Positions 24,198 through 53,069 of a stretch of DNA of 64,000 nt are shown in pieces; the stretch's first letter is position 1, and every line of letters begins with the position of its first letter. The notes under the pieces are model-generated. The model had not been told where the DNA came from. It ran no database searches and was given only the letters and a program-made list of their open reading frames with translations. Position numbers and translations under genes: made by a program. Source of the stretch: Galbibacter pacificus (lineage in GTDB: Bacteria; Bacteroidota; Bacteroidia; Flavobacteriales; Flavobacteriaceae); the NCBI RefSeq assembly GCF_029603165.1, contig NZ_JAQSVC010000002.1, positions 744,001 to 808,000 of the forward strand, given 5' to 3'.

Positions 24198-25976
24198 TTA
24201 TTTGTTAATAGCCTTCCATATTTTCTTAAAAATCGATGTGTTTTCAAAAACACCCTTAAAATTTTCCGCTTGCGGGCCATATGCAAAAACGGGCACCATA
24301 ATTCCGGTATGGTCTACGGTCAAAAAATCGGCCTGTACGGTACCGCTTTCTATATCTCCACCAACAATGCCCAAACCAGAGGTTTCATGGTCGGCGGTAA
24401 TTACCACCAACGTATTTTTATGAGTATCTGCAAAACGAAGTGCTTGGGCTATGGCCCGATCGAAATCAAGCATTTCTTTAATTATACCCTGAATGTTATT
24501 GGAATGTCCGCCATTATCTATTTGAGCACCTTCAACCATTAAAAAAAACGGTTCCTCTTTAGAACCAAGCACTTCAAGTGCCTTATGGACACTATTTGGC
24601 AACGCATTCTCTCTTCCATTTATCATCGAAGGGGCTTTTTCGTCCCCAAGATAAACCGCGATTGGCTGATTAAAATCGGTAAATGAGTCAATCGTTACCG
24701 TTTTAAACTGCTTTCCAATGGTATTTTCTTCATTTTTACCCCCTGCCATAAAAAAGTCAAGTTTGCTATGCACAAGGTCCTCCACGATTCCATCTGTATT
24801 ATCACGCTCTGCACGGTACGCATAAAAAGATGCTGGGGTTGCCCCATAAATGGCATCGGTAGAAACAATAGCGGTATTAAACCCCTGCTGGTTTGCCATA
24901 GTTACTAAATTGTCAAGCGCCTTTCCTGCCGGGTCCACGCCAATGGCCCGGTTGTTGGTTTTAGTACCGGTAGCCATTGCAGTTGCGCCTGCGGCCGAAT
25001 CGGTTATTAAATTATCAAAAGATGCGGTTTTAGCCAATCCAACATCCTTAATTCCGGTTAGCGTAAGCTCCCCACGGTTGGCAATCATGGCAGCCGATAT
25101 TTGTGCAAGCCCGTTTCCGTCGCCAATCATTAAAATGATATTTTGCGGGGTTTCGTCCTTGTTATATCCATAACCCGGTTTATATATTTTTATTGGCTCT
25201 TTTTGGCTATAAGTATTATTGGCAAGCTTGCTTAAATATTGTTTTGCAAGTGCCGGCTCATCGGTATTTATGTAGTCTACGCCCAGCTTTGCCAAATTGG
25301 CCCATGCCGTTTTGGTATCGGGAGTTGCCCAGAACCTAAATGGCTTTGAAACATCATGTGCCTTTTTAATGGCGTCTTCTACCTTTTCCTGCTCCTTGGC
25401 CACCATTCTTCCATAACCGTTCCATACAGTATATGTTTTAAAGCTTACACTTACCAAGGCTACTTTTTTTAAGTCTATTTTGTCCAGATTGTTCAGGTTT
25501 TGATGGTCAAACCATATAAAATCGGGATAATTATTGTAGTCTTCAGGCTCAGGCCGGTTTCCCGAAATTACAAAGCGTATTTTTTTATTGTCTGTAACGG
25601 ATGGGTACCTTTTAAGGACTTCGACCAATTTATCAAGGGTTTTATAGGCATCAGATTTTATATCGACCAATAATTGCAATTCCCTTAACTCTCCCAACGC
25701 CGCCAAACTTTCCAATTTTTTTAAGTACATGTTCTCCAAAGTGGCCTTGGCAACTATCTCATCTTCGCTATGCGTTACATAAAGTTCATTGTTTTTAAGA
25801 AAAATGTCGGCTTCTATGGAAGCGGCACCATTACTAAAAGCATACCAAAACGGGAGTTGCTGTTCGTAATCGTTGTGGGAATGTACCTTAAAGGTTTCCT
25901 GAGCGAATAACGTACAATTGATTCCGTTGGAAAGCAATAAAAAGTAGGCCAAGGTTAATTTTAGAATATTCTTCAT
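24198..25976 (-). CDS. Fusion of GDPD/PI-PLC-like domain and alkaline phosphatase
   Basis: Predicted secreted two-domain phosphatase. After a signal peptide (about 1-26), residues 30-260 form a GDPD/PI-PLC-superfamily barrel of the HNDY type: His34-Asn-Asp-Tyr, Glu55/Asp57 in IEADIF and His69 in THSED. Residues 275-592 are a PhoA-family alkaline phosphatase with MIGDGNG (Asp286), the nucleophile Ser327 in TDSAAGATAMATG, GAQIDNGGHSNN and TADHETSG metal-binding blocks. It could split a phosphodiester and then release phosphate from the monoester. It follows SusD by 79 bp in a SusC-SusD-phosphatase operon, which links substrate uptake to organic phosphate. Confidence 0.9.
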   Translation of the reverse strand: MKNILKLTLAYFLLLSNGINCTLFAQETFKVHSHNDYEQQLPFWYAFSNGAASIEADIFLKNNELYVTHSEDEIVAKATLENMYLKKLESLAALGELRELQLLVDIKSDAYKTLDKLVEVLKRYPSVTDNKKIRFVISGNRPEPEDYNNYPDFIWFDHQNLNNLDKIDLKKVALVSVSFKTYTVWNGYGRMVAKEQEKVEDAIKKAHDVSKPFRFWATPDTKTAWANLAKLGVDYINTDEPALAKQYLSKLANNTYSQKEPIKIYKPGYGYNKDETPQNIILMIGDGNGLAQISAAMIANRGELTLTGIKDVGLAKTASFDNLITDSAAGATAMATGTKTNNRAIGVDPAGKALDNLVTMANQQGFNTAIVSTDAIYGATPASFYAYRAERDNTDGIVEDLVHSKLDFFMAGGKNEENTIGKQFKTVTIDSFTDFNQPIAVYLGDEKAPSMINGRENALPNSVHKALEVLGSKEEPFFLMVEGAQIDNGGHSNNIQGIIKEMLDFDRAIAQALRFADTHKNTLVVITADHETSGLGIVGGDIESGTVQADFLTVDHTGIMVPVFAYGPQAENFKGVFENTSIFKKIWKAINK

Positions 25977-27817: not shown

Positions 27818-30754
27818 TTAAAATGATATGTTTAAACCGAACAATAGAGTTCTTGTTTTTGGGTAGTTGAAATAATCGATCCCGAAAGTCTGAATACCGT
27901 CAATAGTAAGGTTTGAATTAATTTCAGGGTCAAATCCGCTATACTTTGATATTACAAACAAATTCTGCCCTGTAACCGAAAACCTGATGTTATGGATTAA
28001 ATCTCCCATCCCTAATAACTCCGGCCTTAAATTGTAGCCCAATGTGGTGTTGTTTAACCGCAGGAAATCACCATCTTCCAGATAACGTGTAGAAACAGTG
28101 TTAGAATTGGTAATATCTTCGTTTTCGTATTGTGTTACAATATCGGTGGTATTAAAGTTGGAAGCCAATAGTCCTTTTGTAAAGAGGGACATTGCCGTAT
28201 GGTTGTATACCTTGTTTCCGGAAACCCCATTAAAGTTAATCCCCAAATCGAAATTCTTGTACTTTAGATTTACGTAAAAGGCATAAATAATATCCGGCAA
28301 GGCGCTTCCGGCCACCCTACGATCATCAGACAAAATACTTAGGCCGTCGTCTCCAATGCCCATAAATTCCTGCATGTAAAAAGACCCTATGGCCTCTCCG
28401 TTAAGGTTCCCGTTAATGGTGGCATCGGTTTGCCCGGCACCTTGTGCAGCTCCCGTTGTTAAAACTTCATATGGAGAATCTACCACTTCATTGTTGGTGT
28501 AAGAAATGTTCCCGCCTATATTAAAAGTAAAGTTATTGCTGAAGTTTCCATTGTAGTCCAAAGAAAATTCTACCCCGCTATTTTTAATTTCCATGTCCGG
28601 AATATTGGTCCAATATTTATCGGTTGGCTGAACCGGGTCTGCCGGGGTTACTTCAAGCAATATATTTTCTGATACTTTATTGAAGTAATCTATGGTTCCC
28701 GTTAACCTGTTATTAAAAAAGCCAAAGTCCAGACCGATATCGGCTTGTGTTGAAACTTCCCATTGAATATCGGGGTTTGCCAAGCGTGTGAAAATTGTAC
28801 CATACGGATAATCCTCAATAGAACTTTCGTCGCCGTTTATCGGATAAGAATCGTTATCATCTTTACTATCGGTATAACTTAATTTGGTGATTTTTGATGG
28901 AATTTCCTGATTTCCGGTCTTACCCCAACTGGCCCTTAATTTTAGGTTGGTTACCACGCTTGAGGCGCTTAAAAAATCTTCGTTCATGATGTTCCACCCC
29001 AATGCAACCGATGGAAAATAACCATATTTGTTGTTCTCCCCAAATTTTGAAGAACCATCTCCCCGCATGGTTGCGGTTATTAAATACTTGTCGTTATAAA
29101 TATAATTAAGCCTCCCAAAAAAAGACTGAAGCTCGTTTTTAACAGCATACGTGTCCATATAAGTCGGGGTGCTCTCTCCACTAATCTGGTCTTGGTATTT
29201 TGGGTCGACTCCATTATCAGAGAATCCTTCCATTCTAAAACTCTTTTGCTCCTCGTATGTCTCTTGGTATGTTTGTCCCACTAAAAAAGTGAAGTTGTGC
29301 TTATCCTTAAAGAAATTATAGGTCAATGTATTTTCCACCAGCGTATTCTTATTGGTGGTGTAAATAGAATTTAAAGACCCGTTTGTATAATCTTCCAACA
29401 AAGAATATGGTTTGTATTGAATATCCCTATTGGTTGAAGAATAATCTACGCCAAGGCTCAACTTATAGGTAAGCCCCTTTACTATTTTTATTGAAGGGGC
29501 AATATTTGCCAAAATACGGTTGTTAACCGCCTCATCGCTATATATTTCTTCTCTGGTAAAAGGATTTAGCATATTTTCCAACAAAGTAGGCTTACCATTG
29601 GTATAAACTGGCGTTGTAGGATTAAGTTGAAGCATGTTCCCAACAATTGATTGAGCATCTGCCCTTGCGTTTTCGATCCTGTTGGCCGTTAAATTGTACT
29701 CTACCCGCAAATGGTCGTTGAATGCCTTTTGCATAAGGTTTAAGCGACCGGAATACAATTTTAGGTCGTTGGACTTTAATATACCCTCTTGATCGTTTAC
29801 ACCCAACGATGCACGGTACGAAAAATTATCGGAAGCATTGCTCAACGAGAAATTTACATTTTGAGAAAAGGCTGTCCTGGTCAATTCGTCCTGCCAATCT
29901 GTGTTGGCCCCGCCATCATCTAAAGTTCCCCCAACAGCTACCACTTGCTGCCTAAATTCATCGGCACTAAAAACATCCACTTTATTGGCCAAGGTAGAGA
30001 AACCGGAAGTCACGCTCAGGTCCATCTGGGCCTTATCGGTTTTTCCATTTTTGGTTGTTATCACAATTACCCCATTTGCACCCCTCGACCCGTAAATGGC
30101 CGTTGCCGATGCATCTTTTAAGACATCTATTTTTTCAATGTCCTGCGAGTTGATAAAGTTTAAAGGGTTGGTGGCAACCCCTGTGGACGAGTTGTCCAGT
30201 GCAAAGCCATCGATAACGTACAAAGGTGTTGTTCCCGAACGCAAACTACCTACCCCGCGGATAATTACATCTTGTGTGGCACCGGGTTCGCCACTAACAA
30301 CCGACACATTTACACCGGCAACCTTTCCTTGGAAAAGCTGACCGGGGTTTGTTGCCAATCCCTTATTGAAGTTTTCGTTATTAACCGAACCGATAGCCCC
30401 TGTAACATCGGCCCGCTTTTGGGTACCATAACCAACTACAACAACATCTTCCAATTGCATTTGGTCGGTCTGCATCGCTATTGTAAGCGGTTGGCTGCCC
30501 GTAACTGTTATGGTTTGGGACTGCATTCCAAGATAACTAAACTTAAGGACATCGCCCCTTTCAGCTTCTATGCTAAATTTTCCGTCAAAATCGGTAACGA
30601 CCCCTATATTTTTCTTCTCAACGGTTACATTAACACCTGGAATGGGGGAATCGTTTTCGTCTAAAACTAGACCTGTAATGGTAGCCTGCGACCAACTTAC
30701 GGAGGTCCAGCCTATCAATACTAAAATTACTACTAAATTTAGGTTTTTAATCAT
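27818..30754 (-). CDS. SusC-like TonB-dependent transporter of the phosphatase operon
   Basis: Complete 978-residue SusC. Signal peptide about 1-22 (ending SWSQ), carboxypeptidase-D-like domain about 25-105 (ITGLVLDENDSPIPGVNV), TonB-box-like DVVVVGYG near 110, plug (LFQGKVAGV, LYVIDGFAL, GSRGANGVIVITTK), then a barrel ending in ISF. It is the first gene of SusC-SusD-phosphatase. No perfect -7 box was found upstream, but a tandem 9-bp repeat at 30856-30873 may be an activator site. Substrate unknown. Confidence 0.96.
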   Translation of the reverse strand: MIKNLNLVVILVLIGWTSVSWSQATITGLVLDENDSPIPGVNVTVEKKNIGVVTDFDGKFSIEAERGDVLKFSYLGMQSQTITVTGSQPLTIAMQTDQMQLEDVVVVGYGTQKRADVTGAIGSVNNENFNKGLATNPGQLFQGKVAGVNVSVVSGEPGATQDVIIRGVGSLRSGTTPLYVIDGFALDNSSTGVATNPLNFINSQDIEKIDVLKDASATAIYGSRGANGVIVITTKNGKTDKAQMDLSVTSGFSTLANKVDVFSADEFRQQVVAVGGTLDDGGANTDWQDELTRTAFSQNVNFSLSNASDNFSYRASLGVNDQEGILKSNDLKLYSGRLNLMQKAFNDHLRVEYNLTANRIENARADAQSIVGNMLQLNPTTPVYTNGKPTLLENMLNPFTREEIYSDEAVNNRILANIAPSIKIVKGLTYKLSLGVDYSSTNRDIQYKPYSLLEDYTNGSLNSIYTTNKNTLVENTLTYNFFKDKHNFTFLVGQTYQETYEEQKSFRMEGFSDNGVDPKYQDQISGESTPTYMDTYAVKNELQSFFGRLNYIYNDKYLITATMRGDGSSKFGENNKYGYFPSVALGWNIMNEDFLSASSVVTNLKLRASWGKTGNQEIPSKITKLSYTDSKDDNDSYPINGDESSIEDYPYGTIFTRLANPDIQWEVSTQADIGLDFGFFNNRLTGTIDYFNKVSENILLEVTPADPVQPTDKYWTNIPDMEIKNSGVEFSLDYNGNFSNNFTFNIGGNISYTNNEVVDSPYEVLTTGAAQGAGQTDATINGNLNGEAIGSFYMQEFMGIGDDGLSILSDDRRVAGSALPDIIYAFYVNLKYKNFDLGINFNGVSGNKVYNHTAMSLFTKGLLASNFNTTDIVTQYENEDITNSNTVSTRYLEDGDFLRLNNTTLGYNLRPELLGMGDLIHNIRFSVTGQNLFVISKYSGFDPEINSNLTIDGIQTFGIDYFNYPKTRTLLFGLNISF

Positions 30755-33056: not shown

Positions 33057-33094
33057 TTAACCCTGCCCGATTGCCGTTCGGGCAGCGTGGTTAA
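33057..33094. other. GC-rich hairpin overlapping the stop of the 33091-36795 gene
   Basis: An outer TTAACC/GGTTAA stem (33057-33062, 33089-33094) stacks on an 8-bp CTGCCCGA/TCGGGCAG stem (33063-33070, 33078-33085) with a 3-base bulge. The stop codon of the minus-strand fusion gene lies in the outer stem. A-runs rather than T-runs follow on both strands, so it is an imperfect terminator at best. Confidence 0.55.
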
Positions 33095-36000
33095 AAATTC
33101 ACTCCTAACTTTAAGGCAAATCGGTTTCCTTCCTTAGAATTAAACAGAGACATATCCATATTAATTAGCTTGCTTGCCACTATAAAAACACCTCCGCCAA
33201 AAGAGTTGTGCCAAAGTCCGGAGTCATCGTTTTCCAGCCACACCCTTCCACAATCGGCACCTCCGTACAGCCCCAATTGAATTGGGAGTATCCTTGTTTT
33301 AAAAGAATTAAAGGTATAACGGACATCGCCATTGAAAACCAAACTGTTTTTTCCGGTAAACCTATTAATTCTATAGCCCCTTAAACCACTGTTCCCGCCA
33401 AGAAAGGGCGCCTGATAAAACTCAAAATCATCGCCAAAGTTTAATTGGCTTTGCACATTTGTTTTTAAAACCAGTTTGTGGTCTTTGCTTAAACGGTTAT
33501 AAAATGTAAGTTGAGGTTTTAGGTAGACAAACCCATGCCCGGAATCGGATAAATTGAAAGTATATCCCGTAATTGCATTAAAGAACATCCCCCTGCTCGG
33601 GTTAATACCAAGGTCGTAACTTTTGTATGTATAGCCCAATTCCAATGTAGTAAAGTACTTCCAGTTGAAAAAATCATCATCTAAGTTGTATTCCCCTATA
33701 AAGCGGTCCGGAGTATCATCAACTTGGGCCCCTTCAAAAATAAAGGTTCCTCTAAATGTGCTTCCATACGGCGATCTTTTGGTAAGCCCCAAATATCCTT
33801 TAAGGTTACTTAAATTTGTTCGGTAGTAATCCATCCCGAGATCGTCTTCCAGATTTTCGGTTTCATTGCCATATCCATAGAAATTCCTTGCATATGTAGG
33901 GCTGTTATATTTAGCGCCAAAAGAGAGGTTTAATTTTTTTAATAAACCTGCCACTTCTCCATCATAAGTAAATTCAACACCTTGTGTTGCAAAATGATAA
34001 CGTGCCCCAAAGCTGTGCTTTGTAGAAAAAGGGTTCCTTTCAAAACCATAATTGGTTATTGTATAGTTTAAGCCCGCTATAACTCCGGCATCTGGATTAA
34101 AACCTAGCCCGGGAACCAATGTATATGTTGAATATTTGTTTTTATTGTACGTAAAAATATTGTTCTCGTATATATCAGTAAAGCGTTTCACACCTCCATT
34201 GTTAACCGCGACGGTATTGTTTTTTGATTTATAATCGTAAAAACGCACTTTTTTGCCGTTATTGATTTTAAATGTGTCGTTATTTTGGCCTCCAACCAAA
34301 CGTACCATTATGGGATTTTTAGCCTTGCCGCTCACTTCAAATATATCTTTATCGTCCAAGCCATAAATCCATATTTCCTTGGTAATATTGCTGTTAAAAA
34401 TCCTGTCTACTATTACATCGGCTTTTTTTCCGTCTTTTATCCTAGAAATAACTACGTGTGTTTCTTTATTTTTGGCACGTATTACTTCAATATAATCATC
34501 TTTATCGGTACCAAACAATACGGCTACTTTATTTAATGTTTTGTAATAATTGTTTGCAATATTCCCCAAAAGCACTTTTCGTTCTTTTAAGGTCGTTTTT
34601 ATTTTTTCTAAAGATTGGTCCTGTACTTCCCGGGGCACTTGTTTAAATGCTTTTTCAATTACATCATCTGTAAGGTTTTCTTGTATATAGGCCGCTTCTT
34701 CCTGCCAAACGGGCAAAGTGCTGTTTTGAATAAGAACACGGTCCATTGGCATTGGTTCGGTATTAAACCATTCTATATTTTTAAGCTCAGGTTCGTAACG
34801 CTGCATCATTTTGGCCGGTGCTACCAATGTTCTTACTGAACTCAAGAAAGCACCATCAAAATCGGAAAAAGCCTGATCTCTGTCCCTCGGTATGGGGCGG
34901 TATATTTTTTTATTTCCTTCATTAAACTCTGCCCACCGCCATTGATCGGTATGCCTGTCCCAGTCGCCAATGAGCATGTCGAACAAACGCGCCCTGATGT
35001 ATGCCCTTTCATCTAAGGTATATTTCTCGTCTTCCCGTAAATTATCAAAAAGGTCGTCTGTACTTTCAATATCATCGGGTCGGCCAAAACTTTCCAGATC
35101 TTGGTGCTCTTTTCCGGGCCGTTCTTCTATTAAATACAGTTCGTCCCCATATTCATCGTTATACTTTCCAAGCCTTTGTTGTTTGGGTATGTAATACAAT
35201 TTAGGATTTGTATGATAAACCCCAACGGCATTAGACAATATCGGGATTGGATAGGCAGCATATGGATGTGCCGATGTATAGAAATCCAGCAAAAGATCTT
35301 CTGGCAGGGTTTGGGTAAGATCTTCCGTAGTTAAAATCTTGTCTTTCAGCACAACACTTTGCAAAAACTGAACGGCACTTTTTTTAACCGCCCTCATGTT
35401 GTATTCCTTGCCTCGCTTATCTACAAGCCTTAATGTTTTTGTTTGATGCCCGCCGCCCATGCGTATTGGCGTGAGACCACCGTATAGCGTATCCAGAACA
35501 GCTACTTTTGCCTTAATGGACGTTCCATATATCTCGCGGTAATGGTCGCCCCAAAAGCCTTTGTAGGTATTTGAAACTTCTGTTTTCTCTTTGGGGTAAA
35601 CCGAAGTGGTAATGTAGCTCGGGTAATTTTTAGGGAAATTATAGTTTTTAATGGCCGGAGTAGGCGGATAAACTTCCGTTTGAAAAGCAAGCATTTCCTT
35701 ACTGTCTACAGCCGTAAAAAACCTCACCCATGAAGATCCGTCTTTATAAACGTCAATAATGGCATATCCCTGTTTCCCCGAACCAAAAATTGCATTTCCG
35801 GTTAATTTTGTTGCTGATTCTTTTGAGCCGGAACCTGCAATTACCTGTTTTATTTTATTGTTGACGATATATTGTAGGGAATGGTCGTGGCCCGATGCAA
35901 ATATTACATTTGCCGGCGCTTCTATGGCAATGGATTCTATTCTTTTTTTAAATTCCTGATATCGTTGGTTTTGAGTATCTTGAATAGAAACTCCGCCAGA

Positions 36001-36795
36001 TTTTCTAACATGCTCGATCAATGATGCTATTCCGGGCATGGGAACCTTGCTTTGAAATGGAAACAATTGTTTCCCGGCCGCAAAATACCCACCATGTGTT
36101 CCATATGTAAACAATGGATGATGAACCGCCACAATGATGGTTTTTCCTTCATTTTTTTTCAGCATTCCTTCAAACTCGATAAAAAATTTCTTTCTCGTTT
36201 TTATTTCACAATCGTCGTTTATGGTCGGGTGCTTGTCCCAATCTTCTAAAAACCACTGAGAATCTATCGTTATTAAATGAACCGCTTCAGAAATTTCTAT
36301 TTCGTCCAAACCGCATACATCACTTGGTAATAAAACTCTTTTTCTTTTAATAATACCCTCAATAAAATCTTCTTGCCTTTCTATTCCTTTAACCCCGCCA
36401 TTGTACCAGTCGTGGTTCCCGGGAATAAAAATTACTTTGGCAGCTACATCTTTTACGGCATTTATTTGGGTGGTTAATTGGTACTCGGCATTTTCCCTAT
36501 TTGCCCCGTCTTCCGGGGGCATTCCATCGGGATAGATGTTGTCGCCCAAAAAAATGGCAAAATCATTTTTAGTACTTTTAGACACAGCCTTCCGGAAAAG
36601 CTTTAAGGCATCAGACGGTTCGCTGTTGTTAGACCCTCCCGCATCGCCTATTAAATAAAAACGCCGGTCTATTTCTTTATTTTGGGAATCTTCCTTGTAA
36701 TTTTCCCTTACAAATTTCGACTGGTATGTTGCACAGGAAAACAGGCAGCACAAAAAAAGGAAGAGGAGGGTTTTATCAAAGTATTTTTTTATCAT
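33091..36795 (-). CDS. Fusion: metallophosphoesterase, kinase-like domain and Omp85-type barrel
   Basis: A 1234-residue outer-membrane protein with a lipobox (LFSC, Cys21). Residues about 45-320 are a calcineurin-like phosphoesterase: GDAGG (Asp51), GDN (Asp85), GNHD 126-129, HH 225-226, GHDH 302-305. Residues about 435-650 look like a FAM20/CotH-type kinase: Gly-rich loop MGGGHQTK (446-453), AVKK (469-472), GDWDRH (catalytic Asp613 candidate) and PRDRDQAF (636-643). Residues about 905-1234 form a surface-antigen/BamA-like barrel (GGNSGLRGY, ending in Phe). Similar lipoprotein-barrel phosphoesterases are known as unnamed families in Bacteroidota; the kinase-like reading is mine. Substrate unknown. 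Confidence 0.85.
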   Translation of the reverse strand: MIKKYFDKTLLFLFLCCLFSCATYQSKFVRENYKEDSQNKEIDRRFYLIGDAGGSNNSEPSDALKLFRKAVSKSTKNDFAIFLGDNIYPDGMPPEDGANRENAEYQLTTQINAVKDVAAKVIFIPGNHDWYNGGVKGIERQEDFIEGIIKRKRVLLPSDVCGLDEIEISEAVHLITIDSQWFLEDWDKHPTINDDCEIKTRKKFFIEFEGMLKKNEGKTIIVAVHHPLFTYGTHGGYFAAGKQLFPFQSKVPMPGIASLIEHVRKSGGVSIQDTQNQRYQEFKKRIESIAIEAPANVIFASGHDHSLQYIVNNKIKQVIAGSGSKESATKLTGNAIFGSGKQGYAIIDVYKDGSSWVRFFTAVDSKEMLAFQTEVYPPTPAIKNYNFPKNYPSYITTSVYPKEKTEVSNTYKGFWGDHYREIYGTSIKAKVAVLDTLYGGLTPIRMGGGHQTKTLRLVDKRGKEYNMRAVKKSAVQFLQSVVLKDKILTTEDLTQTLPEDLLLDFYTSAHPYAAYPIPILSNAVGVYHTNPKLYYIPKQQRLGKYNDEYGDELYLIEERPGKEHQDLESFGRPDDIESTDDLFDNLREDEKYTLDERAYIRARLFDMLIGDWDRHTDQWRWAEFNEGNKKIYRPIPRDRDQAFSDFDGAFLSSVRTLVAPAKMMQRYEPELKNIEWFNTEPMPMDRVLIQNSTLPVWQEEAAYIQENLTDDVIEKAFKQVPREVQDQSLEKIKTTLKERKVLLGNIANNYYKTLNKVAVLFGTDKDDYIEVIRAKNKETHVVISRIKDGKKADVIVDRIFNSNITKEIWIYGLDDKDIFEVSGKAKNPIMVRLVGGQNNDTFKINNGKKVRFYDYKSKNNTVAVNNGGVKRFTDIYENNIFTYNKNKYSTYTLVPGLGFNPDAGVIAGLNYTITNYGFERNPFSTKHSFGARYHFATQGVEFTYDGEVAGLLKKLNLSFGAKYNSPTYARNFYGYGNETENLEDDLGMDYYRTNLSNLKGYLGLTKRSPYGSTFRGTFIFEGAQVDDTPDRFIGEYNLDDDFFNWKYFTTLELGYTYKSYDLGINPSRGMFFNAITGYTFNLSDSGHGFVYLKPQLTFYNRLSKDHKLVLKTNVQSQLNFGDDFEFYQAPFLGGNSGLRGYRINRFTGKNSLVFNGDVRYTFNSFKTRILPIQLGLYGGADCGRVWLENDDSGLWHNSFGGGVFIVASKLINMDMSLFNSKEGNRFALKLGVNF

Positions 36796-36858
36796 ATTTT
36801 CAATTAAATGCAGATTTTATCGTAATATTATATTCAAAGATCTAGATATTAAAATTCC

Positions 36859-38034
36859 ATGAACGATATAGTTGATAAGTCGTCGGACTATGTAAAAAAC
36901 TTACTAATTACGAAGTTAGGTAAAAACTATTTATATCATAATCTGATCCATACAGAAAGAGTAGTTTCGAGTGCAAAAAAATTATGCGAAGCACTTAAAA
37001 TATCTGCTGAAGATGAAGAAATTATTATGCTTGCTGCTTGGTTCCACGATACGGGATATACGCAAAACCCTACCGAGCATGAAAGGGAAAGCTGTAAAAT
37101 TGCCAAACAGTTTTTAGAAGAAAATGGCTACAATAATACCGAAAAGCTCAACAAGGTATGCAGTACCATTATGGCCACTAAAATGGGCGCACTGCCCCAA
37201 AATATATTGGAAAAAATAATTAAGGATGCCGATAGTTCCCATTTGTCAAAAGAAAGTTATGTTAATACTTCTGAGATACTGCGACAAGAATTGGCCGCTA
37301 CCGGTGTGGCCGATTTTTCCATGGACGAATGGAGGAACAAAAACATAAAGCTTTTTGCAACCATGCACCAGTATTATACGGCTTATGCTATTGAAAACTG
37401 GAGCGAGGGCAAGATTAACAACCTAAACCAACTGATTAAAAAAAACAAAAAGGACAAACAAAAGGAGAAGAATGAAAAATTAAAGGCCAAGCTGAAGCAG
37501 GAAAACCCCGAAAGAGGCGTACAAACCCTCTACAGGGTTGCGCTACGCAACCATATTCAGCTTAGTTCTATTGCAGATACAAAAGCAAACATCCTCCTTT
37601 CCATTAATGCCATTATTATTTCGTTGGCCCTTTCCAACCTGATTCCAAAATTAGATAGTCCCTCCAATAGCCATTTGGTGTTGCCTACTTTGGTACTGGT
37701 TATTTTTAGTGTTATCTCGGTAGTTTTTGCCATCCTTTCTACCAAACCAAATGTTACAAGAGGAGAATTTACCGATGAAGATGTTGCCCAACGCAAGGTA
37801 AACCTGCTATTTTTCGGTAATTTCCATAAAGTTCCTTATAAAAAATATGAATCGGTTTTAAGAGAAATGACCAAAGAAAAGGAATATATTTACGAATCTT
37901 TGACCATGGACCTGTATAATCTTGGGCTTGTATTGGCCAAAAAATATAAACTCTTACGAATTACTTATATGGTATTTATGGTAGGGTTGATACTATCGGT
38001 CTTTTCTTTTATTATAGCTTTTTCGTTTATTTAG
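36859..38034 (+). CDS. HD phosphohydrolase domain fused to Pycsar-effector-like (DUF5706) membrane domain
   Basis: Residues about 20-185 are an HD domain with the full motif: His31 (LIHTERV), His63-Asp64 (WFHDTGY) and Asp123/Asp125 (IKDADSSHL). A Lys-rich linker (195-215) leads to the DUF5706 region (222-391), the membrane domain of PycTM effectors: LSSIADTKANILLSINAIIIS (in parts), TM segments about 243-261, 272-294 and 367-389, and the conserved NLLFFGNFH block. In Pycsar such domains respond to cCMP/cUMP and damage the membrane. No pyrimidine cyclase is adjacent, so this may be a stand-alone nucleotide-sensing or house-cleaning version. Its stop overlaps the next gene's stop by 8 bp. Confidence 0.85.
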   Translation: MNDIVDKSSDYVKNLLITKLGKNYLYHNLIHTERVVSSAKKLCEALKISAEDEEIIMLAAWFHDTGYTQNPTEHERESCKIAKQFLEENGYNNTEKLNKVCSTIMATKMGALPQNILEKIIKDADSSHLSKESYVNTSEILRQELAATGVADFSMDEWRNKNIKLFATMHQYYTAYAIENWSEGKINNLNQLIKKNKKDKQKEKNEKLKAKLKQENPERGVQTLYRVALRNHIQLSSIADTKANILLSINAIIISLALSNLIPKLDSPSNSHLVLPTLVLVIFSVISVVFAILSTKPNVTRGEFTDEDVAQRKVNLLFFGNFHKVPYKKYESVLREMTKEKEYIYESLTMDLYNLGLVLAKKYKLLRITYMVFMVGLILSVFSFIIAFSFI

Positions 38035-40390
38035 CAATTACCTTCATAAGATCGTTAAACGTCAATGGGCTCTTTCCTTCGGCATAGGTATACAATATTT
38101 CTACCGACATGGCCTTTAGCCCAATAACGCCCTGTAATTCCTCCAGTTCGTTAATTTCAACATTGTCGTAAAGCATGCCCTTTGCCTGCAATAAACGTAT
38201 GTACCTTAAATATTCTTCTTCTTCCTTTTTTTGAGAATACACAATGGTAATCTTGCCAGGTTTGGTTATGCGTTCGTTGGTGCCTTTAATATGTGCCTTG
38301 TCTATACGTTTCTTTATTATTTCATATCTGGCATTGTAGGTCCCGTCGACATCAAAGCGTTTTTCGTCCATTCTAAATTTAATAGTAAGCGGAGAACTGT
38401 GCACCAAAATCAAGGAAGTAACGTCCAAAGGCACTTCAAGGCTTGGTTTTAGCTCGTAATATGCATTTTCCATGGCACACATTACCACCAATTGCCATAA
38501 TTTTAGGTTTTGAAGGTATATATCGCTGTAATTTTTTGTAGGCGCAATAGCATTTCCGATATACATGGTGTGGTCTACCCCATCGGTTTTGTACCTTTCA
38601 AAATAATGGGGGAAAATATGTTGGGCCTCGACTTGTTTTTCATCCAGTATCCTGGCCATTTTTTTGTTCATGCTTGTAACGGCATCATCATATTTTCTAC
38701 GTTGGTCGTAAATCATTTTCAAAGATGGGTCCAACGCCTTTTCATAATGAGCCACCATTGCTGCCAGGGAATTGTTGAATATGGCTATTTGCTCCAACGA
38801 TGGATGTATTTCTTCTTTTAGAAAATCCATCACAATTTGTTCGGTCCCTGTTTTAAAAGATTTTTTTACTTCTTCTAAATACGACAATACCCTAAATTGA
38901 TATTCCTCATAAATTGGGAATTTCATCAAACTGGTGACACGGTCGAATATTAGGCTTAACTGTTCAAGCTGCGTTATTAAATCTTTTTGGGTTGCCTTGT
39001 TCCTGGCTATAGACGAGTTTTTAATGTCTATTTGCCCATACAAAGGAAATACATCCTTAAAAACAATATCTTTAAAAGAAATAATATTCCCTCTGCTTTT
39101 TTCTTCCAAATAATGTTTTACCTCTTTTACAAATTTCCACTTTACACTTTCGTGAATGGAAGTATACTCATTTTGAATAATCGCCTCTATGGCATTGGCA
39201 TGCTCGTTTTTATTACGGATAACCGCTGCGGTGATATACGGAAGAACATCGTTAAGCTTGTTGGCATTGATGCTGTTTAACTCGTATTTTCTTTTAGAAA
39301 CCAGTTCTAGTACGCCCAAAAGCTCTTTTTCGTTTGTTATGGGAATTAAAATGGCGCTTTTATATCCTTGGTGGTATAATGCCCTATATGGCATTGCGCC
39401 TTGCGATAATTTATAAGCTTTCTCAATATCTGAAATTGAAAAGTATTTTTTTTCGCCTTTGAGGATCTGACTCGATTTTTCGCACAAAATGGTGTCGCAG
39501 TCTTCTTCATGCTTTTCCCATAGCAAATAACTGGGCAGCCCTTTGGTTAATTTTTCAAAAACATACGAATGCTCATCGTATCCAGAGAAACCCGTTTGTA
39601 AATCGCTAATATTGAAAATAGACCGGAATATTTCCTGAAAACGGTTTAAAAGTATGGCATCGCTGGACGATTGTTCCAACAAGGTCGTTTTTAAGTCGGA
39701 AATAGAATCGTCTATGGTTACGTCAAAAATATTAGAAATAACAAAGCCGCTCGCAATCCAACTATTGGGCGGAAATTTTTCTTTCCATAACTCAAGGTTG
39801 TCAAAACCATCCAAGAGTTCTTCGATATCTTTATCGGTAAGGGTCTTTGCTTTATCGGTCGGGAGAAATTCCATAAAGTCTGCATTGTACTGTATTCTAT
39901 AATGCCTTAAAACACCGTTCTTGTCTGGAATGTCGTAAAAAAGTGGTTTTTTATAGGCCAGGTCCCCTTTTTTATAATAAAACGATAAAATTACGGCACA
40001 TTGAAGAATGTACATTTGTTCCTCGGGCACGTTCCTAATTTGCAAATCATAACCGTCCCCGGCATCTTTTAATATTTTTTTAAAGCGTTGAGAAGATTTA
40101 AAGATGTTATTGTCAAAAGGAAGTCCGGCCGTTTTTATTTCGTTGTTGGAAAGTATGGGCGAAAACGAATCCTGTAAAAGTATTTCTATTTGTTCTTTGT
40201 AATCCCCGCATTTGTTTAAGTCTGAAAAACCATGCCTCAATTCCGGATAAGCATCTGCCATTTCAAGTATTTGCCTTGCATTTTCGGCCTGAAGCTTCGA
40301 GCCGTTCTTGGCTACTTCTTCGTACATTTCCAAAAGTTTATTAAAACTAATGCTTATTTTAAATGGGGAATCGTGTAAATAGCTTTTCAT
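38027..40390 (-). CDS. Large GAF-domain protein of unknown function
   Basis: A 787-residue soluble protein, no signal peptide or TM. Residues about 245-392 resemble a GAF sensor domain (GYKSAILIPI, ELLGVLELVSKRKYELN). The N-terminal 1-240 and C-terminal 400-787 parts match nothing I recognise; the C-terminal part is helix-rich (LSYLEEVKKSFKTG, DQRRKYDDAVTSMNKKMARIL) and then mixed (SPLTIKFRMDEKRFDVDGTYNARYEI in parts). No histidine kinase, cyclase or HTH motif was found. It is convergent with, and overlaps by 8 bp, the HD-DUF5706 gene. A role as partner or sensor for that gene is only a hypothesis. Confidence 0.65.
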   Translation of the reverse strand: MKSYLHDSPFKISISFNKLLEMYEEVAKNGSKLQAENARQILEMADAYPELRHGFSDLNKCGDYKEQIEILLQDSFSPILSNNEIKTAGLPFDNNIFKSSQRFKKILKDAGDGYDLQIRNVPEEQMYILQCAVILSFYYKKGDLAYKKPLFYDIPDKNGVLRHYRIQYNADFMEFLPTDKAKTLTDKDIEELLDGFDNLELWKEKFPPNSWIASGFVISNIFDVTIDDSISDLKTTLLEQSSSDAILLNRFQEIFRSIFNISDLQTGFSGYDEHSYVFEKLTKGLPSYLLWEKHEEDCDTILCEKSSQILKGEKKYFSISDIEKAYKLSQGAMPYRALYHQGYKSAILIPITNEKELLGVLELVSKRKYELNSINANKLNDVLPYITAAVIRNKNEHANAIEAIIQNEYTSIHESVKWKFVKEVKHYLEEKSRGNIISFKDIVFKDVFPLYGQIDIKNSSIARNKATQKDLITQLEQLSLIFDRVTSLMKFPIYEEYQFRVLSYLEEVKKSFKTGTEQIVMDFLKEEIHPSLEQIAIFNNSLAAMVAHYEKALDPSLKMIYDQRRKYDDAVTSMNKKMARILDEKQVEAQHIFPHYFERYKTDGVDHTMYIGNAIAPTKNYSDIYLQNLKLWQLVVMCAMENAYYELKPSLEVPLDVTSLILVHSSPLTIKFRMDEKRFDVDGTYNARYEIIKKRIDKAHIKGTNERITKPGKITIVYSQKKEEEEYLRYIRLLQAKGMLYDNVEINELEELQGVIGLKAMSVEILYTYAEGKSPLTFNDLMKVIAK

Positions 40391-44700: not shown

Positions 44701-46779
44701 CTAATCTTTTAGTATGCCAATTTCTGCATAAGTTGCCCGCACATCGTCGCCCGCCACTTTTATTGCCTTCAATTTAATATATTGCGCTTCAACGGGAGCA
44801 AAATTTACCTCCTGTTTTATTCTGTTGTTTACAATATTCCCAAATTCTCCTAGGGAGATTTTCTTCCAGTTTTCCCCGTTCGTGCTTACCGAAAACTCAT
44901 AATCGGTTATAATCCCAAACGGAAATCGGGCCTGCATCGGTGTGTACGAAAATCCTTTTACAACTATATTTTCCCCAAAATCTATACTAATTTCCCTTGT
45001 CGTATCGCTGGCATCGGTCGTCCAATACGTTTCAGGGTTGGCATCTATTACCTTTGCAAGAGCTGTTTGTTCTCCAGAAGAAGCTTCCAGCACCTTCCAG
45101 TTCTTTTTGGCGGTTTCCAGTTTTTTGGTCAACACCCCTGTTTGCTCCTCTGTTTCGGGATTGTATGCAATTACTTTTAATATTTTTGGTTCGTTCACCA
45201 TAAAAGGTCGGGAATATTTAGGTGAATTTAAAGTAGGTTCTGTTCCGTCAACGGAATAATAAATTTCTATGGCATCATCGGGAACTTGCAATGAAACCAT
45301 TCCATTTTTATTTCTTTTGATGATGGGCTGCACCAATAAATTAGGGGCATTGTACAAGGCAATATTCGACAGCAAAATAGATCCTTTTGATGCTTCTATT
45401 GCTATTTTCACTTTTGATGCCTCTATCCTATCAAACCTTAAAATCCGTTTATAACCAATAGTTGTTTGTTCGTCAATAAGTTGCCATTTTCCATCTACTT
45501 TGGCTTCTATTTTAAACTTTTTAACGCGCTGCCCAAGCGGAATGTATTCCTGCAATAAAACCCGGTTTACCATTTGTGGCTTATGGAATGAAAGCGTAAC
45601 GCTTGCCGAAGTAACCGAATCTTCCGTTGCCCAATACGTGTTTTGGTTGCCATCAATGGCCATGTGGGCCCTGTAATTTTTGCTGCGGCTATTGGAAGCC
45701 TCTGTTTTTGCCTCCGAAGCCACATTTTGGGCAAAATCCTTATCCAATTGCCTGCGGAGCTTCATCAGTTGAATTGAATCTTTTTCGTGAACCAGCCCAC
45801 GTTTGTCTACAGGGATGTTCAACAAGAAAGATGCATTTCTTCCAACCGATTTGTAATAAATATCCACCAATTGCGCCAAGGTTTTTACTTGATGATCTTC
45901 CGAAGCATGATAATACCAGCCCGGCCTTATGGAAACATCGGCTTCGGCAGGCAACCAATGTGTACCATCTTCGTGACCGCTTCGCAATTCTTTGTAGCGT
46001 GGCCAGCCGGGGTATATTTCATCGCGCCGCATAATGCTCCAATTGGTTTCGTTTGCCCAGCCTTCTTCATTGCCCACCCAACGTATATCGGGGCCGCCAT
46101 CGCTAAAAATAACGGCTTTTGGCTGTAGTTCCCTAACAATTGCAATGGCCTTTTCCCATTGGTAATAGGTTTTATTGTCTATTTTGCGTTCTTCATTGGC
46201 ACCGCCGTAATACCCCGTTCCGCCGTTGGCCCCGTCAAACCAAACTTCAAAAATATCGCCATAATTGGTCAATAACTCTCGTAACTGCTGATGGAAAATA
46301 GCAACGTATTCGGGTTTACCGTAATTTTTATTGTTTCGGTCCCAAGGAGAAAGGTACACGCCAAATTTCAATCCGTTTTCCTTGCAAGCTTCTGCCAATT
46401 CTTTAACAATATCCCCTTTTCCATTTTTGTAAGGCGAATTATTAATGGAATGCTCGGTAGTTTTGGTAGGCCATAAACAAAACCCGTCATGATGTTTTGC
46501 TGTTAAAATAATGCCTTTCATCCCTGCTTTCTTCACTGTTTTTGCCCATTGCCGTGTATCGAGATGGGTGGGGTTGAACGTTTTAGGCGATTCGCCTCCC
46601 AAGCCCCATTCCATGTCTGTAAACGTATTCATATTAAAATGAACAAACGCATAATACTCCAACGGTTGCCATGCCAATTGCCTTTTGGAAGGTATTGGCC
46701 CGACGGGTGCAGGTTCTTTCTCGGCACAGGAAATAAAAGCAAGTGCGGTAAAAAATAGCAGGAAAACTTGTTTTGTCAT
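44701..46779 (-). CDS. GH29 alpha-L-fucosidase lipoprotein with F5/8-type C modules
   Basis: Predicted to release L-fucose from glycans. The ATG at 46779, one base after the GH95 stop, is chosen; another ATG at 46791 would overlap GH95 by 11 bp. Lipobox FISC near residue 18. The GH29 barrel has KHHDGFCLW, GVYLSPWDR and the nucleophile Asp in EVWFDGANG (residue 186 from the longer start). Then come an F5/8-type C (CBM32-like) module (about 350-480), a short chitobiase/hexosaminidase C-terminal-like module (IYYSVDGTEPTLNS) and a second F5/8 C module at the end (SGEQTALAKVIDANPETYW, in part). It is co-transcribed with GH95, suggesting fucosylated oligosaccharides as substrate. Confidence 0.92.
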   Translation of the reverse strand: MTKQVFLLFFTALAFISCAEKEPAPVGPIPSKRQLAWQPLEYYAFVHFNMNTFTDMEWGLGGESPKTFNPTHLDTRQWAKTVKKAGMKGIILTAKHHDGFCLWPTKTTEHSINNSPYKNGKGDIVKELAEACKENGLKFGVYLSPWDRNNKNYGKPEYVAIFHQQLRELLTNYGDIFEVWFDGANGGTGYYGGANEERKIDNKTYYQWEKAIAIVRELQPKAVIFSDGGPDIRWVGNEEGWANETNWSIMRRDEIYPGWPRYKELRSGHEDGTHWLPAEADVSIRPGWYYHASEDHQVKTLAQLVDIYYKSVGRNASFLLNIPVDKRGLVHEKDSIQLMKLRRQLDKDFAQNVASEAKTEASNSRSKNYRAHMAIDGNQNTYWATEDSVTSASVTLSFHKPQMVNRVLLQEYIPLGQRVKKFKIEAKVDGKWQLIDEQTTIGYKRILRFDRIEASKVKIAIEASKGSILLSNIALYNAPNLLVQPIIKRNKNGMVSLQVPDDAIEIYYSVDGTEPTLNSPKYSRPFMVNEPKILKVIAYNPETEEQTGVLTKKLETAKKNWKVLEASSGEQTALAKVIDANPETYWTTDASDTTREISIDFGENIVVKGFSYTPMQARFPFGIITDYEFSVSTNGENWKKISLGEFGNIVNNRIKQEVNFAPVEAQYIKLKAIKVAGDDVRATYAEIGILKD

Positions 46780-46780
46780 T

Positions 46781-49153
46781 TTACTTTTCAATTTTATTCA
46801 GCCCTTCGCCCAAATACATTTTTGTATTTGCCTTTAGGTTAATTGTTTTTGTAGTGCTTCCGTATTTTACATCAACAGATTTATTTATCGGGGAAAGCAA
46901 GGTCAATGTAACCAATTTCCCGTTATTCCACGTTATGCCTACCTCGATATTTCCTCTTGCTATAAGTCTGCTTATCTTTCCTGTTTTCCAGTTTTCCGGC
47001 AACGTTGGCAGAATGCGCAAGAAACCTTCATGCGATTGCAGGAGAAGTTCTGCAACTCCTGCGGTATAGCCAAAGTTCCCGTCGATCTGAAATGGCGGAT
47101 GCTCGTCAAACAAATTATCGGCCAGGGAAATTTCAAAAAACTTATTGATATTTTCTTCTGCCGATTGTTTATCGAGCAACCTCGCATTGAAATTAATCAT
47201 CCATGCCCTGCTCCATCCTGTACCGGCACCACCATGTTCCAACCGGTATGCTATAGTTTTTTTGGCAGCTTCAAAGGCTTCAGGGGTTGCTTCGGTAATA
47301 TCGTCTCCAGGATGCAGTGCATATAAGTGCGATATGTGCCTATGCCCTTTCTCCGGTTCATCATATTGTTTGTCCCATTCTAAAATACGTCCGTCTTTGC
47401 CTATAATTACCCCCGATTTTAAATCTTTTTGCTTTGCTTTTACTTCAGCAATAAAATCATCTTCAATATTTAAAACGGTAGCCGCCTGTAAAGTATTGGC
47501 AAACACCTCGGCTATAATCTGTTGTCCCATTGCCGTGCCTCTTGACACGGCCGCGGGCTTTCCATCGGTAGCGAGATAGGAGTTTTCGGGAGATGTTTCC
47601 GGGTACGAAATCCATTGCCCCGTGGCTTGGTCCTTTTGTAACCAATCCAAGTAGAACAAGGCCATTTCCTTTAAGTACGGATATGCTCTTTCCTTTAAAA
47701 AAGCTGTGTCTTGCGTAAAACGGTACTGCTCCCAATAATGTTGGGCAAGCCACCCGCCACCGTGTATCCACGACCCCCAAAAGGGCTGTGCCGCGCGCAT
47801 AAACGTAGGCGCCCATATATCGGTGGTATGATGCACCACGGCACCGCGATTGATTCCATATTGTTCTTTGGCCGTAACTTCCCCCCTTTTTACCAGTTTA
47901 TCGGCAAAATCAAATAGCGGCAGTTGGCATTCACTTAAATTGGTAACCCCGGCGGGCCAGTAATTCATTTGTAAATTGATGTTTAAATGATAATCGGCAT
48001 TCCACGGCGCAACAATATGGTTGTTCCACAGCCCTTGAAGGTTTGCGGGGTTGGTTCCCGGCCTGGAACAGGAAATTAATAGGTAACGCCCATACTGGAA
48101 AAGCTTTGCTTCCAGGTCCAGATCGGGCTTCCCGGCTTTAAATTTTTGCAACCGTTCGTCTGTTGGAAGCGAATCCAAAGTTTCCCTGCCCAACTTAAAA
48201 GCCATACGGTTGTATAACTTACCAAAATCTTCGGTATGCTTTTTTAAAAGTTCATCAAACGGTTTTAAAGATGCCTTTGCCATATTTTCTTCGGCTACCT
48301 TCTCAAATTCTTCGTGATAAAACGAGGTTTGCGTTACCAAATAGATTACCGCCTTTTTCACGCCCCGTAATTCCAGCTTCCCATTATTGGATTTTATTGT
48401 CCCCGAGTCTGTTTTTGCCTTCAAACGGGTTTGAAAGTGCACCCCATCCTTCATTGGGTGCGGCTGATCGGCTACTTTTCCTTCCAATTGGGTAACGGTG
48501 CCATTCATTACCATTTCGTTTTCTTCCGGTGTATGTATTTCCACGGTTGGTTTCCCTGCATCGTCGGGCCTTGATAATTGCAGGTCGAAATCCATTCCCG
48601 CGCCTGCCGATGTTTCCAATTGAATAACCAATGCATCATCTGGCCGGGAAGCTATTACCTTTTCGGTATATAATTCCCCATCTACTTCATACGTTACAGA
48701 AGCCAATGCGTTTGCAAAGCTCAATCCGCGTTTGTATTTGGTAACTTTACCCTTGTGCTTAAAATCTATAAGCAGGTCTCCCGCAGTTTGGTGCGACCTT
48801 GTAATCCCTTTAAACGAAAATTTATCAACAATAAACTTATCGGCTTCATGCACTTTGCCTTCATCAATTAATCTTCTCAGTTCTTTTAAATCTTCGGGGG
48901 TCCCTTTGCTGTTCCCAAGGTTAGCGCCCCCGGGCCACATGGAATCTTCGTTTAACTGTATGTGTTCTTTATTGGTATCTCCAAAAACCATGGCACCCAA
49001 ACGCCCGTTTCCCACTGGAAGTGCCTGCATCCAATCTTTTGCTGGCTGTTTGTACCAGATATCGGTTGTACTGTTCTCTTTTTGTACCGATGCCTCCTTG
49101 CAGGAAGAAAGAAACATTGCCATAAAAGCTAGGCCAAGGTATTTTAATTTCAT
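46781..49153 (-). CDS. GH95 alpha-L-fucosidase (alpha-1,2-type or alpha-L-galactosidase) lipoprotein
   Basis: An inverting glycosidase of 790 residues with lipobox Cys18 (FLSSC). N-terminal beta-sandwich (WMQALPVGNGRLGAMVFGD), then the (alpha/alpha)6 catalytic domain with the Asn391/Asn393 pair (HLNINLQMNYWP), a Glu in EWDKQYDEPE (near 592) that fits the general acid, and Asp691 in FQIDGNFGYTAG, all matching the GH95 active site. Most GH95 enzymes cut terminal alpha-1,2-fucose; some act on L-galactose. Adjacent GH29 and fucose-catabolic genes favour fucose. It starts 14 bp after the lactonase gene. Confidence 0.93.
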   Translation of the reverse strand: MKLKYLGLAFMAMFLSSCKEASVQKENSTTDIWYKQPAKDWMQALPVGNGRLGAMVFGDTNKEHIQLNEDSMWPGGANLGNSKGTPEDLKELRRLIDEGKVHEADKFIVDKFSFKGITRSHQTAGDLLIDFKHKGKVTKYKRGLSFANALASVTYEVDGELYTEKVIASRPDDALVIQLETSAGAGMDFDLQLSRPDDAGKPTVEIHTPEENEMVMNGTVTQLEGKVADQPHPMKDGVHFQTRLKAKTDSGTIKSNNGKLELRGVKKAVIYLVTQTSFYHEEFEKVAEENMAKASLKPFDELLKKHTEDFGKLYNRMAFKLGRETLDSLPTDERLQKFKAGKPDLDLEAKLFQYGRYLLISCSRPGTNPANLQGLWNNHIVAPWNADYHLNINLQMNYWPAGVTNLSECQLPLFDFADKLVKRGEVTAKEQYGINRGAVVHHTTDIWAPTFMRAAQPFWGSWIHGGGWLAQHYWEQYRFTQDTAFLKERAYPYLKEMALFYLDWLQKDQATGQWISYPETSPENSYLATDGKPAAVSRGTAMGQQIIAEVFANTLQAATVLNIEDDFIAEVKAKQKDLKSGVIIGKDGRILEWDKQYDEPEKGHRHISHLYALHPGDDITEATPEAFEAAKKTIAYRLEHGGAGTGWSRAWMINFNARLLDKQSAEENINKFFEISLADNLFDEHPPFQIDGNFGYTAGVAELLLQSHEGFLRILPTLPENWKTGKISRLIARGNIEVGITWNNGKLVTLTLLSPINKSVDVKYGSTTKTINLKANTKMYLGEGLNKIEK

Positions 49154-49167
49154 GTTGGTCGGTTTTT

Positions 49168-49989: not shown

Positions 49990-49994
49990 TGTAA

Positions 49995-50855: not shown

Positions 50856-50875
50856 CTATATATTTTTTGTTGTAT

Positions 50876-51652: not shown

Positions 51653-51669
51653 GTAAATAATCGTTTCTG

Positions 51670-52977: not shown

Positions 52978-52995
52978 CGTATAAATTATCCTTTT

Positions 52996-53003
52996 CAAAT
53001 TTA
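52996..53003 (-). promoter_or_regulatory. Predicted -7 box of the fucose operon
   Basis: TAAATTTG on the minus strand, a perfect TAnnTTTG, 19 bp before the chosen ATG of the L-fuconate dehydratase gene. The implied TSS near 52990 gives a very short leader. No clear -33 element. Confidence 0.45.
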
Positions 53004-53069
53004 TTTTAGAAGGATATTAAATTCCACCCCTGAGATTACAAACCATGATACTTTTTTTGCCCTTGGCGT

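Follow-up and report, generated by a model that had tools for sequence, protein, structure and literature searches.

Here, we describe a gene of Galbibacter pacificus that encodes a predicted outer-membrane lipoprotein of 1234 amino acids, in which a phosphoesterase domain, a kinase-like domain and an Omp85-type barrel are joined on one chain. The window, i.e., the whole stretch of DNA analysed, comprises 64,000 nucleotides (contig NZ_JAQSVC010000002.1, positions 744,001 to 808,000); the gene lies at 33091..36795 on the minus strand, starts with ATG and has a single match in the genome. A preliminary description of the window had proposed this three-part fusion, which is confirmed by the open reading frame, the lipobox, the Pfam matches and the structural models. 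Relatives of the protein that are encoded side by side mostly divide the two predicted active sites between them. Conservation is counted over 128 full-length rows, that is, relatives whose match begins by residue 75, among which copies with a decayed phosphatase site are under-represented. The features of the gene, all on the minus strand, are as follows.

33091..36795 (-): gene for the phosphoesterase/kinase-like/Omp85 fusion lipoprotein (open reading frame, Pfam, genome search)
36733..36795 (-): signal peptide and lipobox, last residue Cys21 (sequence; Cys in 126/128 rows)
35656..36663 (-): purple-acid-phosphatase-type metallophosphoesterase domain, residues 45-380, predicted (PF00149; TRAP/ACP5 profile; metal-ligand conservation)
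34516..35574 (-): CotH-like kinase domain, residues about 408-760, predicted (AlphaFold2 model; CotH structure match; hhalign to CotH)
35434..35460 (-): Gly-rich loop MGGGHQTKT, residues 446-454 (motif conservation)
35380..35382 (-): strand-end lysine K472 at a VAIK-like position (Lys in 127/128 rows; ends model strand 69-77)
34942..34968 (-): catalytic-loop motif GDWDRHTDQ, residues 610-618 (conservation; hhalign register)
34876..34884 (-): DxD metal motif D638-R-D640 at a DFG-like position (conservation; hhalign register)
34156..34515 (-): all-beta linker in place of POTRA domains, residues 761-880 (model secondary structure; conserved GGxxxD at 835/836/840, and D817)
33094..34134 (-): 16-strand Omp85-type barrel with C-terminal Phe, residues 888-1234 (full-length model; structure search)
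33373..33384 (-): LRGY motif, residues 1138-1141 (R1139 in 128/128 rows)

Pfam recognises a Metallophos domain at residues 45-237 (E 4e-12) and an Omp85 domain at 1024-1150 (E 2.5e-6), with no credible match between them. The lipobox reads L-F-S-C21. A strict lipobox pattern is matched in 77/128 rows, in which A-T most often stands right after the Cys, and an acidic stretch directly after the Cys is rare among the lipobox strings listed; acidic residues at this place are an export signal of lipoproteins. The family is common in Bacteroidota, with a match in 91/120 Flavobacteriaceae genomes, and the kinase domain is found in 114/296 genomes of the phylum (3 of the 114 weak). Given this spread, the word unusual that had been applied to the device needs qualifying. 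The modules are separable: forms of about 850-920 amino acids consist of the middle domain and the barrel with no phosphoesterase, and at locus L077 three genes in a row separately encode the kinase-like part, the phosphoesterase and the barrel. Stand-alone proteins of about 365-430 amino acids match the window protein only at residues about 383-781 and thus delimit the middle domain. Six of the eight that were fetched (L065-L069 and L072, of L065-L072) start with a predicted membrane anchor, and in the other two the start may be misplaced.

Two predicted enzyme domains

Purple acid phosphatases are defined by the five motifs GDxG, GDxxY, GN(H)D, VxxH/HH and GHxH. All five are present in the first domain as the metal-site blocks GDAGG (50-54), GDNIY (84-88), GNHDW (126-130), HH (225-226) and GHDH (302-305), and they are conserved among the full-length rows (D51 in 123, D85 in 124, Y88 in 127 and H226 in 128), in line with the complete calcineurin-type metal site reported earlier for the first third of the protein. 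Profile searches match this domain to TRAP/ACP5 (E 7e-9) and GAP50 (E 1.5e-5). Because of these matches and the tyrosine of GDNxY, we assign the phosphoesterase to the purple-acid-phosphatase type (TRAP type) as a predicted domain. It shares with TRAP/ACP5 and GAP50 the GDxG, GDNxY, GNHD, HH and GHxH pattern but differs from them in that this predicted phosphatase is part of a membrane-anchored fusion.

The middle domain carries the kinase-like motifs GGGHQT (447-452), K472, GDWDRH (610-615) and PRDRDQAF (636-643). Across 85 aligned middle domains, with that of the window protein counted, 81 have K472, 85 D611, 82 D613, 82 Q618, 80 D638 and 80 D640; among the full-length rows, K472 and D613 are each kept in 127 and D640 in 128. 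Because they are kept across the 85 domains, the motifs are not a chance resemblance at the sequence level, and the Lys and Asp residues singled out in the preliminary description are conserved in homologues. No Pfam family covers the middle domain of the window protein or of 30 relatives that were scanned: two of the relatives touch CotH (best E 0.013) and one touches HipA_C, all sub-threshold, and the window protein itself has no match to Pfam CotH (PF08757) above the cut-off. Likewise, phmmer and profile sequence searches of the PDB did not find a kinase fold, which was recognised through the model only.

Several lines of evidence from this model give the middle domain a kinase fold. The AlphaFold2 model of residues 396-905, built with 74 sequences, has a predicted local distance difference test score (pLDDT) of 90.6 and a predicted template modelling score of 0.91. 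Foldseek matches it best to CtkA (E 7e-5), COQ8A (3e-4) and PI4KII (6e-4). VIA-align ranks CotH (5jd9) at the top with Z 15.0 (254 residues aligned, root-mean-square deviation 4.2), tied with PI4KII (Z 14.9) and followed by CtkA (Z 13.1) and by PI3K-type and HipA chains at about 11-12. Thus, the kinase-like middle third that had been likened to CotH is borne out by the fold comparison, in which the model is kinase-like and CotH is the top-ranked solved structure. FAM20, also named at that time, is not among the best 50 matches listed by Foldseek or by VIA-align, which does not exclude a relation to FAM20. In model numbering (residue = model + 395), strand 69-77 has K472 at its end, helix 201-214 leads into the GDWDRH loop and the DxD motif comes after strands 224-231 and 234-241, an order that we take to be that expected of HipA/CotH/PI4K-type kinases. 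The features of the HipA/CotH/PI4K-type kinase-fold superfamily, i.e., Gly-rich loop, strand-end Lys, catalytic-loop Asp and metal Asp, are all present.

Profile comparison by hhalign with 18 CotH proteins from the phylum, including the CotH neighbours of loci L051, L052 and L057, gives a probability of 58 (P 9.8e-5, 169 columns), and in its register GDWDRH pairs with the NxD loop of CotH and DRDQAF with the DxD (DFD) motif of CotH. CotH and HipA are kin, and as a benchmark their comparison scores 59.5 (P 9e-5), which is the level of the middle domain against CotH; controls against an unrelated phosphoesterase alignment score 2.8 (P 0.016, nine columns) and 0.1. Altogether, these findings support a model whereby the middle domain belongs to the HipA/CotH/PI4K fold class as a new predicted family, closest to CotH and outside PF08757. 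It shares with the CotH spore-coat and secreted kinases (PF08757; 5jd9, 5jda) the fold, the catalytic-loop Asp and the DxD in register but has GDWDRH..Q rather than NxD...N, is fused to a barrel and falls below the Pfam CotH cut-off. PI4KII and PI3K lipid kinases, HipA and CtkA are of the same fold class; however, the PDB searches match the middle domain to none of these by sequence, and the HipA profile comparison is weak. Residues 597-747 (window 34555-35007) also weakly match the PADLOC candidate-defence model PDC-M03A (E 3e-4), perhaps reflecting a related kinase fold.

Active sites divided between side-by-side copies

Among the full-length proteins, 117/128 keep all 14 catalytic positions checked, and 10 of the 11 exceptions sit in side-by-side arrays, the eleventh being the distant L080. 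We examined the arrays L122, L123, L125, L129, L135 and L140 together with nine chosen by coordinates (L208-L215, L228); because L122 and L208 are identical sequences, these are 14 distinct arrays. Thirteen of the 14 (L208-L215, L228, L123, L129, L135, L140) are divided: each holds exactly one copy with an intact phosphatase site and an altered kinase site (13 copies, with the signature mostly H615E, Q618H and D638N) and one or two copies with an intact kinase site and a decayed phosphatase site (17 copies). No copy in the arrays had lost both sites. In the second copy of L135, the first motif is missing only through the chosen start and is intact in the 128-row check.

Copies outside arrays tend the same way, as 24/27 are phosphatase-decayed with an intact kinase site (L216-L227, L229-L236, L238-L241) and three, L237, L242 and L243, have both sites intact; in L234 and L236 the first five phosphatase positions are missing through the chosen start, and H305 is lost. 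L134 and L142 are also phosphatase-decayed. All six kinase residues checked are kept in 44/44 phosphatase-decayed copies. In a tree of 73 rows, calculated by a quick method from residues 400-1234 with the catalytic columns removed, its 13 kinase-altered rows form one clade with support 100, while the phosphatase-decayed label requires five changes, at least four of which are forced by well-supported branches. From these sequences, loss of the phosphatase seems to have occurred on more than one occasion while the kinase was retained, and a single kinase-altered lineage seems to have kept its phosphatase beside kinase-intact sisters. A division of this kind is the outcome expected of two cooperating activities and suggests that both predicted enzymes are real.

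For the kinase-altered clade, in which the uniform change may also mean a new function, a working analogue is the secretory-pathway kinase Fam20C with its kinase-dead paralogue Fam20A, described as a pseudokinase that activates Fam20C (PMC7948968). That pair, as described there, is not fused to a phosphatase, unlike the window protein, and is taken as an analogue by function.

The PycTM partner and neighbouring genes

The fusion gene shares its upstream region with a divergent gene that encodes an HD domain and a PycTM membrane domain.

36796..36858 (.): divergent intergenic region of 63 bp, common to the gene and its partner (open reading frame positions)
36859..38034 (+): partner gene, HD domain and PycTM membrane domain (Pfam PycTM E 2e-32, HD E 1e-10)
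38027..40390 (-): 787-amino-acid protein with a sub-threshold GAF match (near the gene pair in 44/80 Flavobacteriaceae loci)

A relative of the partner lies within the flanks of 57 of 80 Flavobacteriaceae loci (79 plus the window), on the opposite strand in 52 of the 57. Among 120 genomes of the family, a strong match to the partner (E below 1e-90) is present in 89/91 carriers and 0/29 non-carriers; the carrier G047 and the non-carriers G025 and G037 have weaker matches. Among 296 genomes of the phylum, a match covering PycTM is present in at least 93/111 kinase-domain carriers and at least 4/185 others, and with the window's family excluded in at least 66/83 and at least 4/183, respectively; these are counts among the matches listed, which reach down to about E 1e-26, so that weaker ones in non-carriers would be missed. 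Of the 66 pairs outside the family, 47 lie within 6 kb and 54 within 15 kb, and 10 are on other contigs. Many of the phylum partners have PycTM without HD. On these sequence comparisons, a predicted PycTM inner-membrane protein, often fused to HD, is a conserved partner of the fusion protein.

A Pycsar system consists of a pyrimidine cyclase beside a PycTM or PycTIR effector, and the partner scores E 1e-18 against the PADLOC PycTM models. In HD-PycTM, the membrane domain of Pycsar/CBASS effectors is found across Bacteroidota in surroundings that are conserved and seem to be of a housekeeping kind.

Phosphate genes had been put forward as possible companions of the fusion gene, and polyphosphate-type genes were examined here. 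In 40 diverse loci, chosen before their neighbours were seen, a tblastn search finds polyphosphate-type genes in 11 (PPK1 in 8, SixA-like in 8, Ppx/GppA in 1 and VTC in 1; examples confirmed by Pfam). Closer to the window, PPK1 is in 0 of 44 near loci (flanks of about 1.5 kb) and within the flanks of 1 of the 79 Flavobacteriaceae loci, and SixA-like, Ppx and VTC genes are within the flanks of none in either set. PPK1 as an obligate partner was rejected, since its gene is present in 79/91 carrier genomes and 22/29 non-carriers, i.e., without clear co-occurrence, and the single-contig carrier genomes G032 and G113 have no PPK1 match. We treat polyphosphate as a lead rather than a finding. At L051, L052 and L057 the kinase-barrel gene has CotH, Porin_O_P and PAP2 genes in its vicinity, at L055 a VTC domain is encoded nearby, and SdiA-regulated genes, which encode phytase-like propellers, are neighbours in 10/40 diverse loci.

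Within the window, an alkaline phosphatase with a GDPD_2 match (24198-25976) is encoded about 7 kb from the gene, and a TonB receptor (27818-30754) lies between the two. At 44701-53942 there is a probable fucose-use cluster with genes for an alpha-L-fucosidase, GH95 enzymes, an amidohydrolase, an FAA hydrolase, enolase-like and SDR proteins, and an AraC regulator.

Membrane side, proposed function and alternatives

The full-length model (pLDDT 87.1) contains 16 barrel strands; its barrel matches BamA and TamA structures (Foldseek BamA E 7e-11), and PF01103 lies above its Pfam cut-off. The BamA-like barrel previously placed in the last third therefore stands. The LRGY motif is presumably the loop-6 motif of Omp85 proteins. 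In a Pfam scan, the window protein has no POTRA domain and an all-beta stretch, matched by no Pfam family, precedes the barrel instead; G836, D840 and D817 of this linker are present in 128/128 rows. Linker residues 812-840 (window 34276-34362) contain conserved GLDDKD and GGQNND motifs, which in our reading resemble RTX calcium-binding repeats.

The enzyme domains are probably on the periplasmic side and not, as had been proposed, surface-exposed, which is unlikely because the Omp85 barrel is even-stranded, the enzyme domains are N-terminal, the lipid anchor mostly lacks an acidic export signal, and in the patatin-Omp85 protein PlpD the enzyme domain is located in the periplasm (PMC11116518). 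PlpD likewise carries an enzyme domain on an Omp85 barrel but, as described there, it is a patatin lipase with POTRA domains and a single enzyme, whereas the window protein has two predicted enzyme domains and no POTRA domain. Omp85 subfamilies that have other N-terminal domains, or none, were reported in 2014, and in the account of Heinz and Lithgow one of these, "Metallo", has PF00149 N-terminal to the Omp85 barrel (PMC4104836). Thus, the Omp85 and PF00149 architecture, by which we match the two, is already known. In the parts of that account available to us, PF00149 is called a metalloprotease, the subfamily is conserved at genus level and no kinase is mentioned, whereas the window family has a phosphatase-type domain, an additional predicted kinase domain and a phylum-wide spread. 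In the titles and opening lines of abstracts that we surveyed in the open-access literature, preprints apart, the kinase domain, the divided arrays and the PycTM pairing are not described, and on this basis we regard the unannotated kinase domain, the divided active sites and the PycTM partner as new. Two proteins from that literature were set aside: a Riemerella metallophosphoesterase, which a review table gives as a type IX secretion system effector, is probably a different protein, and OMP76, described as TonB-dependent-receptor-like, is not the window protein.

Three folds, conserved catalytic residues in both sites, divided copies and the PycTM pairing come out of the computations. We think it fairly probable that the window protein is an outer-membrane-anchored, periplasm-facing two-enzyme protein. 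The Omp85-type barrel and the N-terminal lipid would keep both enzyme domains on the inward side of the outer membrane; the kinase domain would phosphorylate a protein, lipid or glycan of the envelope, or attach another phosphoryl-type group to it, and the phosphatase domain would dephosphorylate that substrate or one linked to it. The inner-membrane PycTM partner would supply or control the process, and polyphosphate rather than ATP might, at a guess, be the donor or a linked metabolite. More tentatively, and with considerable doubt, we suggest phylum-wide envelope phosphorylation in Bacteroidota, in which a periplasmic CotH-like kinase and an opposing phosphatase on one outer-membrane chain use a non-ATP donor, polyphosphate being the candidate, under PycTM/HD control, and in which duplication splits the enzymes onto sister chains.

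Several observations weigh against a two-enzyme protein. The periplasm is, to our knowledge, thought to hold no ATP, which leaves ordinary kinase chemistry without an obvious donor, and we know of no activity, substrate or donor for any family member. The hhalign score to CotH is modest, the comparison of HipA with the middle domain is weak (8.8, P 0.004, with the same loop aligned), and the distant members L063, L064, L075, L076 and L047 have degenerate kinase sites. Both active sites are altered in L080; array L125 holds one phosphatase-decayed and one fully intact copy; and both sites are intact in each of L242 and L243, which one genome carries on separate contigs. The kinase-altered clade is of single origin, so that the 13 arrays are not independent events, and its uniform signature may reflect a changed rather than a lost function. 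The co-occurrence counts ignore shared descent, many non-carriers of the family set have small genomes, the phylum PycTM counts bear the limit given with them, and PPK1 shows no clear association at the genome level.

Four other explanations have to be weighed. The middle domain could be a pseudokinase that binds an envelope ligand bearing phosphate and hands it on to the phosphatase or the barrel with no phosphoryl transfer. The degenerate kinase sites of several distant members and the retention of kinase-altered copies alongside an intact phosphatase are consistent with this, as is the precedent of Fam20A, which is described as a secreted pseudokinase with a regulatory effect on its active paralogue (PMC7948968). 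However, the near-invariance of K472 (127), D613 (127) and D640 (128) in 128 rows and the six kinase residues kept in 44/44 phosphatase-decayed copies would be needless for a mere scaffold, and we consider a pseudokinase unlikely. We hold it no likelier that the barrel comes first, i.e., that the protein is a BamA/TamA-like assembly or translocation factor in which the N-terminal domains replace POTRA domains and the enzymes only tune its action. The barrel does match BamA and TamA, R1139 of LRGY is invariant, and Omp85 proteins studied before PlpD are described as promoting assembly or translocation (PMC11116518); yet there are barrel-less stand-alone forms of the kinase domain, most of them with a predicted membrane anchor, L077 has a separate barrel gene, and the catalytic residues remain constrained.

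A polyphosphate device, in which the kinase-like domain would use or bind periplasmic polyphosphate and the phosphatase would trim it, with PPK1/VTC, SixA, Ppx and HD-PycTM taking part, is conceivable but doubtful. The polyphosphate-type genes in 11/40 diverse loci, with PPK1 in eight, and the CotH, Porin_O_P and PAP2 genes of L051, L052 and L057 argue for it, but the closer loci have PPK1 in 0/44 and 1/79 and SixA-like, Ppx and VTC genes in none of their flanks, the genome-level association of PPK1 is not clear, and two carriers have no PPK1 match. A cyclic-nucleotide stress or anti-phage response is suggested by the Pycsar/CBASS effector membrane domain of the partner, its PADLOC PycTM match and the weak PDC-M03A match. 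We judge it improbable: the pair is present in most carriers (at least 93/111, among the matches listed) and is often adjacent, whereas defence genes should in our view be patchily distributed, and no cyclase was recognised as a conserved neighbour, although most neighbours were unscanned and L056 may, by eye, hold one.

A periplasm-facing two-enzyme protein is of interest since the two activities look genuine and the donor is puzzling. If it is correct, bacteria would have, at an outer membrane where ATP is not expected, a module for reversible phosphorylation, and what powers phosphorylation in the periplasm could be tested directly, with the side-by-side copies serving as natural separation-of-function alleles. 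A kinase fold would be assigned to a large domain that is common across Bacteroidota and has no Pfam family, the metalloprotease label of an Omp85 subfamily would be corrected, and the PycTM genes of Bacteroidota would gain a partner.

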